Source: Cupriavidus neocaledonicus (GTDB lineage Bacteria; Pseudomonadota; Gammaproteobacteria; Burkholderiales; Burkholderiaceae). Taken from it: a stretch of DNA of 64,000 bases. This document shows positions 56,672 through 64,000 of the stretch, piece after piece (the first letter of the stretch is position 1; each line of letters begins with the position of its first letter). The position numbers were made by a program, and so were the translations under genes. The stretch lies in assembly GCF_000372525.1 (NCBI RefSeq), contig NZ_AQUR01000100.1, positions 124,001 to 188,000 on the forward strand, given 5' to 3'. The notes under the pieces are model-generated. The model had not been told where the DNA came from, searched no databases, and was given only the letters and a program-made list of their open reading frames with translations.

Positions 56672-58423
56672 ATGCTGCGCAGCCTGTCCATCCGTGATTT
56701 CGTCATCGTCGACACCCTCGACCTGGACTTCGCCTCCGGCTTTACCGTCTTCACCGGCGAGACCGGCGCCGGCAAGTCGATCCTGATCGACGCCCTGGCG
56801 CTGGTGCTGGGCGAGCGCGCCGATGCCGGCGTGGTGCGCGAAGGCGCGCCGCGCGCCAGCGTCAGCGCCACCTTCTCGACCCATGCCGCGCTCGATGCCT
56901 GGCTGGCCGAGCGCGAGCTCAACAGCGAGGACGACGGCGGCGTGCCGACCGTGCTGCTGCGCCGTACCGTCGATGCCGGCGGCCGCAGCAAGGCCTTTAT
57001 CAACGGCGCCGCCGCCACCCTGGCGCAGCTGCGCGAAGTCGGCGACCAGCTGGTCGACATCCATGGCCAGCATGCGCACCAGCAACTGCTGCGCCCGGAT
57101 GCGCAGCGGCTGCTGTTCGACGCCCACGCCGGCCTGACCCAGCAGGCCGCCGCGGTGGCCGAGGCCTGGCGCGCCTGGCGTGCCTGCGTGCGCCAGCGCG
57201 AAGCGGTCGAGCACCAGTCGCGCGAGATGCAGCTCGAGCGCGAGCGGCTCGAATGGCAGGTGGGCGAGCTCGACAAGCTCAATCCGCAGCCCGGCGAATG
57301 GGACGAGATCCAGTCGGAGTACAACCGGCTCTCGCACGCCGCCGGCCTGATCGACGGCAGCCGCGCCGCCCTCGACGCACTGTCCGAGGCCGACGGCTCG
57401 GTGCTGTCGGCGCTCAACGGCATCGTGCACCGGCTGCAGCAGCTGGCCGATGTCGACCCCGCGCTGCGCGACGTGCTGGCCGCGCTGGAGCCGGCGCAGG
57501 TACAGGCCGAGGAAGCCGCGCACTCGCTGACGCGCTATGTCGACCGGCTCGAGCTCGATCCCGAGCGGCTGCAGGTGGTGGAAGAGCGCATGCAGGCGCT
57601 GCACGCCACCGCGCGCAAGTACCGCCTGCCGCCCGAGCAGCTCGCCGATGAGCTGGTCGCGCGCCGCCAGCAGCTCGACGACCTGCAGGCCGCGCAGGAC
57701 CTGAACAAGGTGATGGCGCGCGAGGCCGCGGCCAAGGCCGCCTACCTGACGCTGGCGCAGCACCTCAGCCATGCCCGCCAGCAAGCCGCGCAGGCGCTGT
57801 CCGGCGCGGTCACCGACGCCATGCAGGGCCTGTCGATGGCGGGCGGCAGCTTTGTCGCCGCGCTCAATGCGCTCGACGAGGGCCAGAGCTACGGCCTCGA
57901 GCAGGTCGAGTTCCTGGTGGCGGGCCACGCCGGCGTCAGCGCGCGCCCGCTGGCCCGGGTAGCCTCCGGCGGCGAACTCGCGCGCATCAGCCTGGCGATC
58001 TCGGTGATCACCAGCGAGGCCTCGCCCACGCCCACGCTGATCTTCGACGAGGTCGACACCGGCATCGGCGGCGCGGTTGCCGAGGTGGTCGGCAGGCGCC
58101 TGCAGGAACTCGGCCGCGCGCGCCAGGTGCTGTGCGTGACCCACCTGCCGCAAGTGGCGGCGCAGGCCGGCACGCACCTGCTGGTAAGCAAGGAAACCAC
58201 GGCCGAGGCCGACGCCTCGGTGACGCGTTCGCGCATCCGCGCGCTAGACCCGGCCGGACGCGTGGTCGAGACCGCGCGCATGCTGGGCGGCACCACCGTC
58301 ACCGCCACCACGCTGCAACATGCCGAGGAGATGCTGGCGCAGGGCATGGCCGACAGCGGCGCCGGCCAGCCCGCGCGCGCGGGCAAGGACGGCAAGCGCG
58401 GCCGCCGCGCCGCCGCGGGCTGA
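56672..58423 (+). CDS. recN: DNA repair protein RecN
   Basis: A 583-residue SMC-like ATPase for double-strand-break repair. Walker A is GETGAGKS near residue 30, the middle ~300 residues form a coiled coil, and VASGGELARISLAI plus LIFDEVDTGIGG near residues 430-470 are the signature and Walker B. It starts 67 nt after nadK on the same strand. The C-terminal end is Arg/Lys/Ala rich. Confidence 0.97.
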   Translation: MLRSLSIRDFVIVDTLDLDFASGFTVFTGETGAGKSILIDALALVLGERADAGVVREGAPRASVSATFSTHAALDAWLAERELNSEDDGGVPTVLLRRTVDAGGRSKAFINGAAATLAQLREVGDQLVDIHGQHAHQQLLRPDAQRLLFDAHAGLTQQAAAVAEAWRAWRACVRQREAVEHQSREMQLERERLEWQVGELDKLNPQPGEWDEIQSEYNRLSHAAGLIDGSRAALDALSEADGSVLSALNGIVHRLQQLADVDPALRDVLAALEPAQVQAEEAAHSLTRYVDRLELDPERLQVVEERMQALHATARKYRLPPEQLADELVARRQQLDDLQAAQDLNKVMAREAAAKAAYLTLAQHLSHARQQAAQALSGAVTDAMQGLSMAGGSFVAALNALDEGQSYGLEQVEFLVAGHAGVSARPLARVASGGELARISLAISVITSEASPTPTLIFDEVDTGIGGAVAEVVGRRLQELGRARQVLCVTHLPQVAAQAGTHLLVSKETTAEADASVTRSRIRALDPAGRVVETARMLGGTTVTATTLQHAEEMLAQGMADSGAGQPARAGKDGKRGRRAAAG

Positions 58424-58490: not shown

Positions 58491-58937
58491 ATGACCCGCC
58501 CAGCGCCGCCCACCGGCCACCGCCCGCGCGCCTCGCTGCGCGCGCTGCTGGCCCTTGCCACCGCCGCCTCGGCCGCATTGCTGGCGCTGTCCGCCTGCCA
58601 GGCCCAGCCCAAGGCCTCGGCGCCGCCGCCGGGCAGCATCAGCGACGACCGCGCGCTGGGCGACATCATGGTCCGCTTCAAGCCGCCCGCGGTGGACCTG
58701 TCCGAAGACGCCGGCAAGCTGCTGGCCGAAATCAAGGGGCCGATCCGCTATGTGGTCAAGCGGCCGATGTCGGGCGGAGTCTGGCTGGTCACGGCGATCT
58801 CGCCGTCGGCCGACGCCAGCCTCGACCAGGCCGTCGACACGCTGCGCGCCACGCCGCGCATCGAGACCGCCGAGCCCGACCGGCTGCTCAAGCCCAGCCG
58901 CAGTATTCCCACCAGCCGCGACATGCCGGCGCGCTGA
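58491..58937 (+). CDS. Lipoprotein resembling a free-standing subtilase propeptide (I9-like)
   Basis: A 148-residue predicted lipoprotein. A basic signal region and hydrophobic helix end in the lipobox LSAC with Cys36. The mature part aligns by eye to the propeptide of the S8 protease encoded next. DIMVRFK matches HIIVRWR, KRPMSGGVWL matches RRAMGGNLQL, and LRATPRIETAEPDRLL matches LRQDPRVADAVPDRWL. Inhibitor_I9-type propeptides fold their protease and inhibit it, so a tethered inhibitor or chaperone is a reasonable inference. It has a good ribosome-binding site (CAGGAG) and lies 67 nt after recN and 150 nt before the protease. Confidence 0.8.
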   Translation: MTRPAPPTGHRPRASLRALLALATAASAALLALSACQAQPKASAPPPGSISDDRALGDIMVRFKPPAVDLSEDAGKLLAEIKGPIRYVVKRPMSGGVWLVTAISPSADASLDQAVDTLRATPRIETAEPDRLLKPSRSIPTSRDMPAR

Positions 58938-59087
58938 GGCGGAGCGGACCCGTACGGAATGCGGCATTAACGAACGGGGACGAAAACAACACCGCCCTTG
59001 CACAACCCGGCTGGATCGTATTCGCTACATAACATGCCCACGCGCCGGCCCGGCCCGAGCGCGCCACGCCCCAGGGAGGAGAAATCC

Positions 59088-60719
59088 ATGCCGCAATCCG
59101 TGCTGTCCGTGTTCTGCCGCAGCTTCGCGGCCCGCCGCTGGCGGGCCATCGCCCTGGCCGCTGCCGCTGTATGCGGGGCGCTCCCGACCGGCACGGCGCT
59201 GGCAGCCGGCGCGCAGTCCGCACCGGCCTATACCGGCCACATCATCGTGCGCTGGCGCGACGGCACCACCGCGGTCGACGGCAATGGCGCCGGCAAGTCG
59301 CCGGCAGCCGCCGAAGCCCTCAAGCAGCTGAGCGAACGCACCGGCATCGCCGTCACGGCGCGCCGCGCGATGGGCGGCAACCTGCAGTTGCTGCAGGTGC
59401 CCGACGCCTTTGCCGCCGACCCCGAAGCCGCGGCGGCGCGGCTGCGGCAGGACCCGCGCGTGGCCGACGCCGTGCCCGACCGCTGGCTGCGGCTGCACGA
59501 CACCCTGCCCAACGATCCCGAGTTCCAGGTCAACCAGCCGTACCTGAAGGGCACCGGCACCGCCATCGGTGGCGTCAACCTGCCGCGCGCGTGGGACCGC
59601 ACCGGCGGCAGCAGCGGCATGGTGGTGGCGGTGGTGGATACCGGCATCCTGCCCCATCCCGACCTGCAGGGACGGCTGCTGTCCGGCTTCGACTTCATCA
59701 GCACCACCACGGTCTCGAATGACGGCGACGGCCGCGACGGCGACCCGACCGATGCCGGCGATAACCTGCCGGCCGGCTTCACCTGCCCCGGCAGCAGCAC
59801 GCCCACGCCCGAGCCCACCAACAACAGCTGGCATGGCACGCGCGTGGCCGGCGTGCTGGGGGCGCTGACCAACAACGCGCGCGACATCGCGGGGGTCGAC
59901 TGGAATGCGCGCATCCTGCCGGTGCGGGTCTCGGGACGCTGCGGCGCGCTGCTGTCCGACACCGTCGACGGCATGCGCTGGGCTGGCGGCCTGCCGGTGC
60001 CGAACGTGCCGGACAACCCCAACCCGGCGCGCGTGGTCAATATCAGCCTGGGCGGCGGCACCTGCAGCGGCATCGAACAGCAGGCTGTCAACGACCTGAA
60101 CGCGCGCGGCGTGGTGGTGGTGGCCGCGGCCGGCAACAACCGCGGCGCGGTCGAGGCGCCGGCCGACTGCAGCGGCGTGATTGCCGTCACCGCGCACGCC
60201 AACGACGGCGAGAACGCCAGCTATGCCAACGTCGGACCGCAGGTGGCAATCAGCGCGCCGGGCGGCGGCTGCGGCAACTCGCAGGTGGTCGACGGCCGCT
60301 GCACGGTCACGCCTTCGGTGATCCGCACGCTCAGCAATGACGGCAAGACCTCGCTGGGCAACTACGTGGTGGCGTCGTCGGCGGGCACCAGTTTCGCCGC
60401 GCCGATGGTCTCGGGCGTGGTGTCGATGATGTTCGCGCTCAACGGCTCGCTGACGCCGGCGCAGGTCACCGCGGCGCTGAAGAGCTCGGCGCGGCCGCAT
60501 CCCTCTGGCACCTTCTGCACCACCAATCCGGGGGTGTGCGGCGCGGGCCTGCTCGATGCCGACGGTGCGCTGCTGGCCGCGCTGGGCATGCCGCCGGTGC
60601 AGGCCGCGCCGGCACCCGCCGCGGATGGCGGTGGCGGCGGCGGCGCGGTGCCGCTGTGGAGCGGGCTGCTGCTGGCCCTGGCGGGGCTGGCCGGTTTCGC
60701 GCTGCGCCGCCGCGGCTAG
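59088..60719 (+). CDS. S8 (subtilisin-like) serine protease with GlyGly-CTERM tail
   Basis: A 543-residue secreted subtilase. It has a signal peptide (about 1-40), a propeptide (about 48-138), the S8 catalytic domain and a C-terminal sorting tail. The triad is Asp184 (VVDTGILPHPDL), His249 (SWHGTRVAG) and Ser435 (SAGTSFAAPM), with the oxyanion Asn350 (AAAGNN). The tail is six glycines (514-519), a hydrophobic helix (521-539) and RRR, which is the GlyGly-CTERM pattern. Rhombosortases cut such tails, and a rhombosortase gene lies 15 nt beyond, convergent. ATG 59088 has GGAGG upstream; longer frames are not signal-like. Surface display is the likely outcome. Confidence 0.93.
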   Translation: MPQSVLSVFCRSFAARRWRAIALAAAAVCGALPTGTALAAGAQSAPAYTGHIIVRWRDGTTAVDGNGAGKSPAAAEALKQLSERTGIAVTARRAMGGNLQLLQVPDAFAADPEAAAARLRQDPRVADAVPDRWLRLHDTLPNDPEFQVNQPYLKGTGTAIGGVNLPRAWDRTGGSSGMVVAVVDTGILPHPDLQGRLLSGFDFISTTTVSNDGDGRDGDPTDAGDNLPAGFTCPGSSTPTPEPTNNSWHGTRVAGVLGALTNNARDIAGVDWNARILPVRVSGRCGALLSDTVDGMRWAGGLPVPNVPDNPNPARVVNISLGGGTCSGIEQQAVNDLNARGVVVVAAAGNNRGAVEAPADCSGVIAVTAHANDGENASYANVGPQVAISAPGGGCGNSQVVDGRCTVTPSVIRTLSNDGKTSLGNYVVASSAGTSFAAPMVSGVVSMMFALNGSLTPAQVTAALKSSARPHPSGTFCTTNPGVCGAGLLDADGALLAALGMPPVQAAPAPAADGGGGGGAVPLWSGLLLALAGLAGFALRRRG

Positions 60720-60734
60720 CGGCTGCGGTGGTGC

Positions 60735-61379
60735 TCAGGCGGCGGCGCCGCTATCGCGCGCCGGCCGCCGCGCCAGCCACCACTCCTGCAAGACCCAGCA
60801 CAGCAGGCCGGCCACGGCGCCGGCCGCATGCGCGACGCGCACCACGCCGAAGCCCCACGCCGGATCGAACACCACCGGCGCCAGCCACGACTGTTCCACC
60901 CAGACCTTGGCCAGCACGCCCAGGCACAGCAGCACGCCGGTGATGCGCGCCAGTCCCGGCGCGCGCAGCAGCCCCAGCGCGCCCCACAGCGCCAGCCCGT
61001 GCAGCGCGCCCGAGAGTCCGCCGTACCAGGCAATCGCCGGCACGCGCAGCAGCACCAGCTGCACCGCGATGCCGCAGGCGACCAGCACCAGCAACAGGTT
61101 GCGCACCCGCGCCACGCGCGCGCAGATCGCCAGCACGCCGGTGGCGGCGAGCATGTCGGCCAGCCAGTGATGGCCGTCCAGGTGCACCCACATCGCCGTG
61201 GCCAGGCGCCACCACTGGCCGTCCACCCGCACCGCGTCGCGCAGGTACAGGCCATGCGCGTGCCACCACGGCACGAAGGTGAACGTTGCCGACAGCGCCC
61301 ATACCAGCGCCACCGCCGCCAGCAGCCCCGGCCACGATGCGCCGGCGGGTGCCGGCGTCCCCGCGGCGTCAATCCTCAC
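60735..61379 (-). CDS. rrtA: Rhombosortase (rhomboid-family GlyGly-CTERM processing protease)
   Basis: A 214-residue polytopic membrane protein of the rhomboid fold. The catalytic serine is Ser123 in YGGLSGALHGL, the S-G-x2-H-G form characteristic of rhombosortases, and the catalytic histidine is His184 in RVAHAAGA. About six hydrophobic segments are visible. It should cut the GlyGly-CTERM of the S8 protease encoded next door. The start is probably GTG 61379, overlapping the glnE 3' end by 11 nt. An upstream in-frame extension inside glnE is Arg-rich and not family-like. Confidence 0.88.
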   Translation of the reverse strand: MRIDAAGTPAPAGASWPGLLAAVALVWALSATFTFVPWWHAHGLYLRDAVRVDGQWWRLATAMWVHLDGHHWLADMLAATGVLAICARVARVRNLLLVLVACGIAVQLVLLRVPAIAWYGGLSGALHGLALWGALGLLRAPGLARITGVLLCLGVLAKVWVEQSWLAPVVFDPAWGFGVVRVAHAAGAVAGLLCWVLQEWWLARRPARDSGAAA

Positions 61380-64000
61380 CGAACACGGCCTGCCATAGCG
61401 TGCCCACCGCCGCGGTCTGCGCGGCCATCGATGCCGGCGCCACGCGCGCATGGACCTGGCCGTCGAGGCGCAGCTGATGCTGGCGCGCGCGGAACAGCCG
61501 GTAGGCGTCTCCCACCGCCAGTGCCAGCGTGGCATCGATCAGGCCGAGCTCGCCGGCCTCGCGCAGCAGCGCGATATTGCCGGCGTTGCGCGTCAGCTGC
61601 GGATGCGCGCGGCTGTGCAGCAGCACCAGGTACTGCACCGTGAACTCGATGTCTACCATGCCGCCGCGGTCGTGCTTCAGGTCGAACAGTTCGGTCGGAT
61701 TGGGATGGCCCTCGGCGACCTTGCGGCGCATCTGCGCGATCTCGGCGCGCAGCGCCGCGGCGTCGCGCTGCTGGCACAGCACCTCGCCGCGCAGCGCCTC
61801 GAAGCGGGCGCCGATGGCGGCGTCACCCGCGCAGAAGCGCGCGCGCGTCAGCGCCTGGTGTTCCCAGACCCAGGCGGTGTTGTCGCCCTCGCGCAGCTGG
61901 TAGCGGCGGAACGCGTCGAAGCTGGTCACCAGCAGCCCCGCCGCGCCGTTGGGGCGCAGCCGCGTGTCGACGTCGAACAGCGCGCCGGCCGCGGTATGGC
62001 TGGTGAGCCAGGTGATCAGGCGGCGCGCATAGGCGGCATAGACCTCGGGCGCGCGCTCATGCTCGTCGTCGTACAGGAAGATGATGTCCAGGTCCGAGGC
62101 ATAGCCCAGTTCCTTGCCGCCCAGCCGGCCATAGGCGATCACGGCGAAGCGGGGCACCTCGCGGTGGCGCGTGGCGAGCTGGCGCCACACCGTTTCCAGC
62201 GTCGCGTCGAGCATCGCGTCGGCCAGGTCCGACAGGCGGTCGGCCACCTGCTCCACCGTCAGCATGCCCTGCAGGTCCTGCAGCAGCACGCGGAAGGTCT
62301 CGGCATGGTGTTCGCGGCGCAGGATATCCATCTGCTGCTCGACCTGCCCCTCCGCGGCCAGCAGCCGTTCATGCAGGCGCTTGCGGAACGCGGCCCAGTC
62401 GGGCGCGCCGGCCAGCGCGTCGCTGTCGAGCAGCTCGTCCAGCAGCTGCGGATGGCGCGTCAGGTAGGCCGCGGCCCAGCGCGAGGCGTGCAGCGTCTGC
62501 GCGACGCGGTCCATCGCCTGCGGGTATTCGGACAGCAGCGACAGGTAGGAGGCGCGCCGGCTGATCGCCTCGAGGAAGTCGATGAAGCGGCCGATGGTGC
62601 TGTCGGGATCGTCCTGGCGCGCGGCCAGGTCGAGCGCGCGGTTGACCAGCTGGTCGAAGCGCGCGCGGCTGGCTTCGGACAGCGCGCGATAGCGCAGCGA
62701 CGCGGCGATCGCGCGCAGCCGGTCCAGCAGCGCATTGCAGTCGGTAAAGCCGGCGGCCTGCAGCCGCTGGCACGGCACCGCGCTGTCGGCGGCCTCTTGC
62801 GACGGGTCCTGGCGCGGGTTGTCCTGCGCGCGCGCGGCGCTGTCTTCCATGACGATGTCCGGCCACAGTGCCTCGCACGGACCGGCGTCGGGATCGGAGA
62901 AGGTGGCTTCGAACTGCTGCGCGACCGGTTCCTGCAGCTCGGCAAGCCGCGCCAGCAAGGCCGGCCAGTCGGCGCAGCCCATCATTTGCGCCACCGCGTG
63001 CTGCTCGTCCGGTGAGCCCGGCAGGTGGTGGGTCTGGGCATCGTCGCGGTATTGCAGCCGGTGTTCGAGCTGGCGCAGGAAGCGGTAGGCGTCACCCAGT
63101 TGCTCGGCCTGCCCGGCGGGCAGCAGGCCGCGCTCGACCGCCACCGCCAGCACCTCCAGCGTCGGCCGGATGCGCAGCGCGGGGTCCTGGCCGCCGCGGA
63201 TCAGCTGGAACACCTGGGCCATGAACTCGATCTCACGGATGCCGCCGCGGCCCAGCTTGATATTGAACGAGCGCTGCCCGCCGAGACCCAGGCCATGTCC
63301 CGCCAGGCCGCCGCTGCGCTTGGCGGCCTCGCTGCGGATCTGCGCATGCAGCGAGCGGATCGCCGCGATCACGCCGTAGTCCAGGTAGCGCCGGAACACG
63401 AACGGCGAGGTCAGCCGCGCCAGCAGCGCGGCGGTCCGCTGCGCATGGGGCGAGTCCAGCGCCGACACCACGCGGCCCTTGATCCAGGCATAGCGTTCCC
63501 ATTCGCGGCCCTGCACCACCAGGTATTCCTCGAGCATGCCCAGGCTGCAGGCCAGCGGCCCGGCATCGCCATTGGGACGCAGGCGCATGTCGACGCGGAA
63601 CACATAGCCGTCGGCGGTCACGTCGGCGAGCAGGTTGATCAGCCGGCGGCCCAGGCGGATGAAGTACTCGTGGTTGGACAGGGTGCGCGGGCCGCCGTGG
63701 GTCTCGCCGTCTTCGTCGTAGAGGAAGATCAGGTCGATGTCGGACGAGACATTGAGCTCGCGCCCGCCCAGCTTGCCCATGCCCACCACCACCAGCTCCT
63801 GCACTTCGCCGCTGTGGGCGCCGAGCGGGCGGCCGAAGGTGGCGGCAAGGTCCTCGCCCAGCACCGCCAGGCCATGCTGGATCGCCAGTTCGGCCAGGTC
63901 GGTCATGGCACCGGTGACCTCGCCCAGCGTCGCCAGGCCGCGCAGGTCGCGCTCGATCACCGCGCACATGACCTCGGCGCGCAGCCGGCGCAGCGCACGC
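61369..64000 (-). CDS. glnE: Glutamine synthetase adenylyltransferase/adenylyl-removing enzyme (partial)
   Basis: About 877 codons of GlnE, which adenylylates and deadenylylates glutamine synthetase in response to PII proteins. The adenylyl-removing domain has GMGKLGGRELNVSSDIDL near the right-hand part, and the adenylyltransferase domain has YGRLGGKELGYASDLDI. The frame stays open past the right edge, so the N-terminus is missing from the window. The stop overlaps the rhombosortase start, so the two may be translationally coupled. The gene is intact as far as visible. Confidence 0.97.
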   Translation of the reverse strand, partial: RALRRLRAEVMCAVIERDLRGLATLGEVTGAMTDLAELAIQHGLAVLGEDLAATFGRPLGAHSGEVQELVVVGMGKLGGRELNVSSDIDLIFLYDEDGETHGGPRTLSNHEYFIRLGRRLINLLADVTADGYVFRVDMRLRPNGDAGPLACSLGMLEEYLVVQGREWERYAWIKGRVVSALDSPHAQRTAALLARLTSPFVFRRYLDYGVIAAIRSLHAQIRSEAAKRSGGLAGHGLGLGGQRSFNIKLGRGGIREIEFMAQVFQLIRGGQDPALRIRPTLEVLAVAVERGLLPAGQAEQLGDAYRFLRQLEHRLQYRDDAQTHHLPGSPDEQHAVAQMMGCADWPALLARLAELQEPVAQQFEATFSDPDAGPCEALWPDIVMEDSAARAQDNPRQDPSQEAADSAVPCQRLQAAGFTDCNALLDRLRAIAASLRYRALSEASRARFDQLVNRALDLAARQDDPDSTIGRFIDFLEAISRRASYLSLLSEYPQAMDRVAQTLHASRWAAAYLTRHPQLLDELLDSDALAGAPDWAAFRKRLHERLLAAEGQVEQQMDILRREHHAETFRVLLQDLQGMLTVEQVADRLSDLADAMLDATLETVWRQLATRHREVPRFAVIAYGRLGGKELGYASDLDIIFLYDDEHERAPEVYAAYARRLITWLTSHTAAGALFDVDTRLRPNGAAGLLVTSFDAFRRYQLREGDNTAWVWEHQALTRARFCAGDAAIGARFEALRGEVLCQQRDAAALRAEIAQMRRKVAEGHPNPTELFDLKHDRGGMVDIEFTVQYLVLLHSRAHPQLTRNAGNIALLREAGELGLIDATLALAVGDAYRLFRARQHQLRLDGQVHARVAPASMAAQTAAVGTLWQAVFGED

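Follow-up and report, generated by a model that had tools for sequence, protein, structure and literature searches.

Gene organization of the locus

The window analysed here is a stretch of 64,000 nucleotides from Cupriavidus neocaledonicus (contig NZ_AQUR01000100.1, positions 124,001 to 188,000 of the forward strand). At 58491–61379 it carries three adjacent genes, which encode a lipoprotein, a subtilase (S8) protease with a C-terminal sorting tail, and a rhombosortase. The central result concerns the lipoprotein, which is related to the propeptide of the protease encoded directly downstream of it. The features are as follows.

58491..58937, + strand: prodomain-like lipoprotein, 148 amino acids (aa) (open reading frame and translation)
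58596..58598, + strand: lipobox Cys36 (LSAC) (sequence; invariant in alignments A1, A2, A6 and A7)
58650..58883, + strand: I9/prodomain-like fold, residues 54–131 (AlphaFold2 predicted local distance difference test, pLDDT; homology to protease propeptides)
59088..60719, + strand: S8 (subtilase) protease preproprotein, 543 aa (PF00082, 153.5 bits; triad positions)
59223..59501, + strand: the protease's own propeptide, residues ~46–138 (alignment A3; end placed by the start of solved relatives)
59613..60494, + strand: catalytic domain, with Asp184 at 59637–59639, His249 at 59832–59834 and Ser435 at 60390–60392 (PF00082, alignment A3, motif positions)
60633..60713, + strand: GlyGly-CTERM-type sorting tail (MprA_tail), residues 516–542 (TIGR03867)
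60735..61379, − strand: rhombosortase, 214 aa, GTG start, with Ser123 at 61011–61013 and His184 at 60828–60830 (TIGR03902; motifs)

The catalytic domain of the protease exceeded the Pfam cut-off of PF00082 (21.8 bits) by a wide margin, and the triad residues, together with Asn350, were found in the expected motifs. The C-terminus consists of six glycines (residues 514–519), a hydrophobic stretch and RRR. It was assigned to the MprA type by the NCBIfam model TIGR03867 (36.5 bits, cut-off 19.7), whereas the score with the general GlyGly-CTERM model TIGR03501 was below the cut-off (11.8 vs 15.5 bits). The rhombosortase belongs to its family by TIGR03902 (132.5 bits, cut-off 84) and carries SGALHG at 123 and AHAAG at 183, in agreement with the family motifs SGxxH, in which His replaces Tyr/Phe, and AHxxG (PMC3237569). 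An earlier sequence-only reading had placed the three genes here, and its coordinates, triad, glycine–hydrophobic–RRR tail, 15-nt gap between protease and rhombosortase, and S-G-x2-H-G motif all proved correct. Its expectation that both proteins would match the two family profiles held for the rhombosortase, and for the tail with TIGR03867 but not with TIGR03501.

The same reading had proposed a count of GlyGly-CTERM proteins elsewhere in the genome. A candidate second target, the TIGR03501 match at C94:88149 (15.5 bits, exactly at the cut-off), was discarded, as it lies at the start of a frame that continues for hundreds of codons and not at a C-terminus. The genome has one rhombosortase match, and this enzyme probably cleaves the tail of the neighbouring protease. 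It also encodes GspG of the type II secretion system (T2SS; 198.4 bits, cut-off 88.85), from which, together with the likeness to VesB discussed below, T2SS-dependent surface display of the protease is predicted.

Homology of the lipoprotein to the protease propeptide

Alignment A1 consists of 18 sequences, that of the window and 17 from 30 loci. A2 (21 rows) and A3 (24 rows) were made from 39 named loci and the window, and A5 contains 10 propeptides. A1 was too insensitive for distant relatives (in genome G225 it matched the protease propeptide only), and A6 and A7 were therefore built. In the window's lipoprotein, the lipobox follows an N-terminal hydrophobic stretch, as read by eye. The lipobox cysteine is invariant in all 18 sequences of A1 and also in A6 and A7, and an SG core is nearly invariant among the diverse relatives. 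By its lipobox the protein qualifies as a bacterial lipoprotein, and lipidation is predicted.

The suggestion of the sequence-only reading that the lipoprotein resembles the propeptide of the protease was borne out by BLASTP, which aligned the two over 116 aa with 30% identity (E 9e-5), and by profile–profile comparison with hhalign (probability 96.7%, E 4.2e-10). The mature part alone gave a score of 61.7 (E 1.6e-10) against the propeptide; 200 column shuffles scored 21.7 or less and the reversed profile 14.7. None of the 200 shuffles was as good as the real comparison; the mature part of the lipoprotein is homologous to the protease propeptide, and the likeness is not due to chance.

AlphaFold2 predicted a beta-alpha-beta-beta-alpha-beta domain for the lipoprotein with confidence at residues 54–129 (pLDDT values of 91–97 in blocks 51–130), the order of elements expected for a subtilase prodomain. 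Solved subtilisin propeptides matched this model at Z 7.3–7.6 on a second look (3cnq_P, Z 7.6), level with unrelated ferredoxin-like chains. No subtilase propeptide was among the 50 matches listed by Foldseek with the same model, and when the lipoprotein alignment was searched as a profile against the PDB, no propeptide was returned, the best match being an unrelated protein at E 0.039. The Fervidolysin prodomain model PF22148 was matched weakly by 8 of 13 diverse relatives (best E 0.00065), and PF05922 by one of the 13 (E 0.2). The gathering score of PF22148 is 21; the tabled match reached 20.5 bits, just below it, and P0002 reached 14.7 bits.

The protease retains its own N-terminal propeptide in all cases aligned, and solved relatives align with the window's protease from residue 140–141 onward, at their chain residue 2–3. 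The end of the lipoprotein can be compared with this boundary. In G793/G670, G756, G619, G611 (G-numbers denote genomes) and Ralstonia, it lies 4–6 residues past a conserved D-x pair, which is about the position at which a propeptide would be cut, judging from the solved relatives. In five Cupriavidus pairs, the ratio of nonsynonymous to synonymous substitution rates (dN/dS) of the lipoprotein gene was 0.23–0.32; the gene is under purifying selection.

Conservation of the locus in Burkholderiaceae

In a sample of 200 genomes of family f1, which was taken as Burkholderiaceae (genus g1, Cupriavidus; genus g24, Ralstonia), the lipoprotein profile gave matches in 45 genomes, of which 39 were counted. 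Those left out were G059, G106 and G169 (match inside an S8 match), G025 and G122 (all but 18–24 bases of the match inside an S8 match), and G179 (nothing found when the locus was read). By coordinates, the lipoprotein gene lies directly upstream of an S8 protease gene in all 39 carriers (22 of g1, 16 of g24 and one of g4). A rhombosortase over the cut-off was found in 38 of them, convergent on the same contig in 35 and on another contig in three; in the remaining carrier, G166, the contig ends inside the protease gene, and the search revealed no rhombosortase. The co-occurrence across Cupriavidus and Ralstonia that the sequence-only reading had predicted was thus observed. The 39 named loci were retrieved via the lipoprotein, so that its presence in them is by selection. 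Thirteen S8 relatives from other f1 genera lack a Gly-rich sorting tail, as judged by eye, and no lipoprotein was seen in the ~3–4 kb fetched. As the genera that carry the lipoprotein may have a common history, the f1 count is weak evidence by itself.

The order lipoprotein, protease(s), rhombosortase, glnE is kept as far as each of the 39 named loci extends. The two conserved neighbours, which we take to be recN and glnE, are as follows.

56672..58423, + strand: left neighbour recN, upstream in 38 of the 39 named loci
61369..63969, − strand: right neighbour glnE, adjoining the rhombosortase in 32 of the 39 named loci

The only locus without recN upstream is L058, whose sequence begins at the lipoprotein, and the seven loci without glnE end before reaching it. 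In the window, AGGAG closely precedes the ATG of the lipoprotein gene. The protease and rhombosortase genes are convergent, and the 15 nt between their facing stop codons (60719–60735) leave little space for separate terminators. The GTG start of the rhombosortase gene overlaps the final 11 nt of glnE; the two are therefore probably translated together, with the rhombosortase gene facing the protease.

Two further observations concern the number of sorting targets and enzymes. A second S8 protease follows the first in nine of ten Ralstonia-type loci (L063–L072), three of which also show the start of a third. The second copies at L063–L071 (Ralstonia and relatives) bear Gly-rich, hydrophobic and basic tails, so the published count of one target for Ralstonia may be too low. 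At L127 (G184:C2:2093100-2105600) and L128 (G121:C6:447900-460400), a second rhombosortase lies beside an unrelated frame of ~840 aa with a Gly/Ser tail; C. metallidurans has been reported to possess two rhombosortases (PMC3237569).

Diverged relatives and T2SS operons

Beyond the family, the order sample (399 genomes, searched with A1) showed the lipoprotein in three g1 genomes and in G256, and G225 was reached via its protease propeptide. The class and phylum samples were searched with wider profiles. The class sample (274 genomes) gave 18 matches: the window's own genome, 11 S8 frames, and short lipoprotein frames in six genomes, all six of which adjoin an S8 protease. The phylum sample (249 genomes) gave 12 matches: the own genome, seven S8 frames, lipoproteins in three genomes (G974, G876 and G870), and G1065. 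The G1065 match, another lipoprotein without the core, was not counted. In G974, an S8 gene adjoins the lipoprotein gene and is cut by the contig end.

The lipoprotein gene adjoins that of an S8 protease with a Gly-rich, sorting-type tail in G256, G225, G756, G611, G793, G670, G619 and G798. G256 (family f10) has the lipoprotein, a Gly-tailed S8 protease and a convergent rhombosortase in the order of the window, amid different neighbour genes. In five genomes of four families (G225, G793, G670, G619 and G798), the cluster is located in a T2SS operon beside gspF. G793 and G670, which are of one genus (f136), carry the three genes of the window in the same order between gspF and gspG. In G619 (f85), the genes between gspF and gspG encode an S8 protease, the lipoprotein, a second S8 protease and a rhombosortase. 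In G798 (f144), an S8 gene and the lipoprotein gene follow gspF; the fetched stretch showed no gspG and no rhombosortase. The three rhombosortases encoded in T2SS operons scored 135.1, 128.1 and 159.3 bits.

In G225 (f27), gspF and gspG flank a lipoprotein gene and an S8 gene, which share 4 bases including the stop codon. The S8 tail is of the JDVT-CTERM type (30.1 bits, cut-off 27), and the genome gave no rhombosortase match. The GspF and GspG models scored over their cut-offs in G225 and GspC below its own; the other gsp names in this genome are presumptive, mainly from gene order, and those outside G225 were given by likeness to G225 proteins. The S8 tail of G756 (f77) is also JDVT (35.2 bits), and that of G611 is JDVT-like in appearance with no model match; no gsp genes were found in the stretches read in these two genomes. 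The Gly-rich tails of G004, G256, G793, G670, G619 and G798 were recognized by eye; no match to TIGR03867 or TIGR03501 was listed for these proteins. A tail-less S8 gene in G939 (L220 1707-5640, + strand) directly precedes gspE- and gspF-like genes.

The recurrent position beside gspF brings up the main rival explanation, namely a role of the lipoprotein as a membrane chaperone or foldase specific to the T2SS, like CpaB or the lipase foldases; it would fold or hand over the protease instead of inhibiting it. Besides the five T2SS operons, the adjacency and the predicted membrane anchoring recall the T2SS chaperones of Acinetobacter (PMC4713064). We regard this explanation as less likely. The protease's own propeptide speaks against it, as do rhombosortase-linked S8 proteases for which no lipoprotein was found close by.

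The latter came from a survey that started from the rhombosortase. The enzyme was over the cut-off in 18 genomes outside g1, and 17 loci were fetched (all except G581). A Gly-tailed S8 protease is the neighbour at 7 of these 17 loci of other Burkholderiales families, and the lipoprotein was found at G256 only. At the six other rhombosortase–S8 loci, no lipoprotein was found within ~6 kb, a permissive re-scan included. A7 searches of those six whole genomes returned only frames of 602–736 residues; the genome-wide absence is insecure, because the A7 search also missed a weaker candidate in G456 (f49). That candidate is a lipoprotein-like frame of 110 residues (profile E 4e-5), directly upstream of a Gly-tailed S8 gene and ~40 kb from the rhombosortase of that genome.

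L219 3857-4330, − strand: G456 candidate lipoprotein
L219 1799-3853, − strand: S8 protease, followed by a further S8 frame

Since S8 loci without a detected lipoprotein exist, the sorting of S8 proteases by rhombosortases seems, as such, not to require the lipoprotein. Other Burkholderiales rhombosortases (L112, L113, L118, L119, L122 and L124) adjoin Gly-tailed frames of 295–429 aa, perhaps another dedicated target.

Evolutionary history of the prodomains

A tree of 40 prodomains was calculated from 104 columns; two of its rows are long and one is of odd composition. The lipoproteins of Cupriavidus, Ralstonia and G004 form one group (98/93), and the propeptides of the corresponding proteases group separately (96/94). 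On this grouping, a recent origin of each lipoprotein by copying from its own protease's propeptide was rejected. With all 13 lipoproteins considered, four label changes are required on the free tree, and the share of 200 bootstrap trees in which one branch separates them from the rest was 0%. A single lipoprotein clade was not rejected (p-AU, the P value of the approximately unbiased test, 0.574), and the constrained tree had the higher likelihood. One old origin of all the lipoproteins is thus allowed by the tree.

An old propeptide duplication that merely hitchhikes beside the protease, with no functional link, would fit the failure to find the lipoprotein near the six loci mentioned above. 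We regard it as very improbable in view of the dN/dS values, the invariant lipobox cysteine and nearly invariant SG core across diverse relatives, the recurrence of the association at different genomic sites, and the grouping of the lipoproteins of the window's genus with those of Ralstonia and G004 and not with the propeptide of their own protease.

Proposed role of the lipoprotein

We propose, with moderate confidence, that the lipoprotein is a lipid-tethered prodomain that acts on the protease in trans, restraining it in the periplasm like a safety catch and/or aiding its folding. From the gene identities, the homology, the predicted fold and the conserved association, which were obtained directly, we infer the following course of sorting, secretion, binding and inhibition. 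The S8 protease would be exported by Sec along with its own propeptide and be retained in the inner membrane by its C-terminal helix. The rhombosortase would trim the tail, and the protease would then take the secretion route predicted above. Meanwhile the lipoprotein, a lipid-anchored prodomain that stands alone and shares the family of the protease propeptide, would, on the periplasmic side, bind the catalytic domain and re-inhibit any protease that had become active before secretion; it may also aid folding of the protease. Because the aligned proteases keep their own propeptides, the best explanation for a second, tethered prodomain is that it serves as a catch, and for the same reason inhibition is favoured over a role as sole foldase. 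The catch and the folding or hand-over roles can coexist.

Several observations weigh against this proposal. The matches of the predicted fold to subtilisin propeptides tie with unrelated ferredoxin-like chains, and the model of the protease was poor (mean pLDDT 58.9) and unsuited to structure search. The C-terminus of the lipoprotein overshoots the expected cut site in Cupriavidus, G004, G256 and G225; in the window's own genome it extends to 17 residues past the D-x pair, a length that would not be expected of a simple product inhibitor. To these are added the six rhombosortase–S8 loci where no lipoprotein was found and G678, of the same genus as G798, in which an S8 gene follows gspF and no lipoprotein was seen in the 1.8 kb read beyond. 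Finally, G876 and G870 encode the lipoprotein without any S8 protease within the 18 kb read; in these two related genomes it is located at L207 8375-8824 and L209 8827-9342.

The last two genomes would be easier to understand if the lipoprotein were a surface regulator, that is, a protein at the outer membrane or cell surface that controls or docks the displayed protease or inhibits foreign proteases. A lipobox cysteine that is not followed by Asp is read as a signal for the outer membrane, and none of the aligned lipoproteins has Asp directly after the cysteine. However, all 39 carriers in the family have the lipoprotein together with the same protease, which argues for a partner and not a general inhibitor, and we consider a surface regulator improbable.

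Returning to the safety catch, we suggest, more tentatively, that prodomain-like lipoproteins may be a general device of the type II pathway: lipid-tethered trans-inhibitors of C-terminally sorted S8 proteases, whichever tail these carry (rhombosortase/GlyGly-CTERM or JDVT-CTERM), and old enough to adjoin gspF in the T2SS operons of several proteobacterial families.

Relation to known systems

Haft and Varghese defined the GlyGly-CTERM and rhombosortase families in 2011 and noted that, in genomes with a single target, its gene tends to adjoin that of the rhombosortase (PMC3237569). In Table 3 of that paper, R. eutropha H16, R. eutropha JMP134, C. taiwanensis and Ralstonia strains appear with a single target next to the rhombosortase, and the legend of its Figure 3A mentions proteases of the S8/S53 type that bear GlyGly-CTERM tails. 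Proteins are given in the table as bare identifiers; from genus and adjacency, its targets would be this very protease. These dedicated pairs are like the present one in enzyme family, tail type, single-target adjacency and genera (Cupriavidus and Ralstonia), but unlike at the present locus there is no companion described: the words 'lipoprotein' and 'propeptide' have no occurrence in the main text of the paper (PMC3237569). Because these pairs and the NCBI tail model exist, the two-gene pairing of protease and rhombosortase is already known. The sequence-only reading had called the whole arrangement undescribed, which fails for the subtilase with its dedicated rhombosortase (PMC3237569) and stands for the tethered propeptide-like lipoprotein, for which no bacterial counterpart was recognized among the matches listed in the open-licence literature searched. 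The lipoprotein is apparently an undescribed, recurrent third component.

In Vibrio cholerae, the activity of VesB requires the rhombosortase and its surface display requires the T2SS (PMC6219818). VesB and the rhombosortase RssP thus offer a serine protease, GlyGly-CTERM tail, rhombosortase cleavage, T2SS and surface display, as is proposed here. VesB is trypsin-like (PMC13393428), unlike the S8 protease; V. cholerae has several targets, and no prodomain-like lipoprotein is named for VesB/RssP in the available text of the report (PMC6219818). SUB1-ProM of Plasmodium is a free-standing subtilase propeptide-like protein that inhibits a subtilase; like the lipoprotein it stands alone and is encoded near subtilase genes, but it is eukaryotic, and neither a sorting tail nor type II secretion is mentioned in the available text (PMC6993865). 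CpaB and LipB/Lif, as is predicted for the lipoprotein, are membrane-anchored periplasmic partners encoded beside a T2SS effector; they differ in having a transmembrane-helix anchor and SRPBCC or lipase-chaperone domains instead of a putative lipobox anchor and a prodomain (PMC4713064).

It seems, in our judgement, to be an open question how bacteria avoid damage from a folded subtilase in the periplasm during the processing of its tail and until the T2SS exports it. A lipid-anchored prodomain encoded with the protease, the sorting enzyme and sometimes the secretion operon is a concrete and testable candidate for this task. If the proposal is true, stand-alone propeptide inhibitors, as known from Plasmodium, would have a counterpart in bacterial surface sorting.

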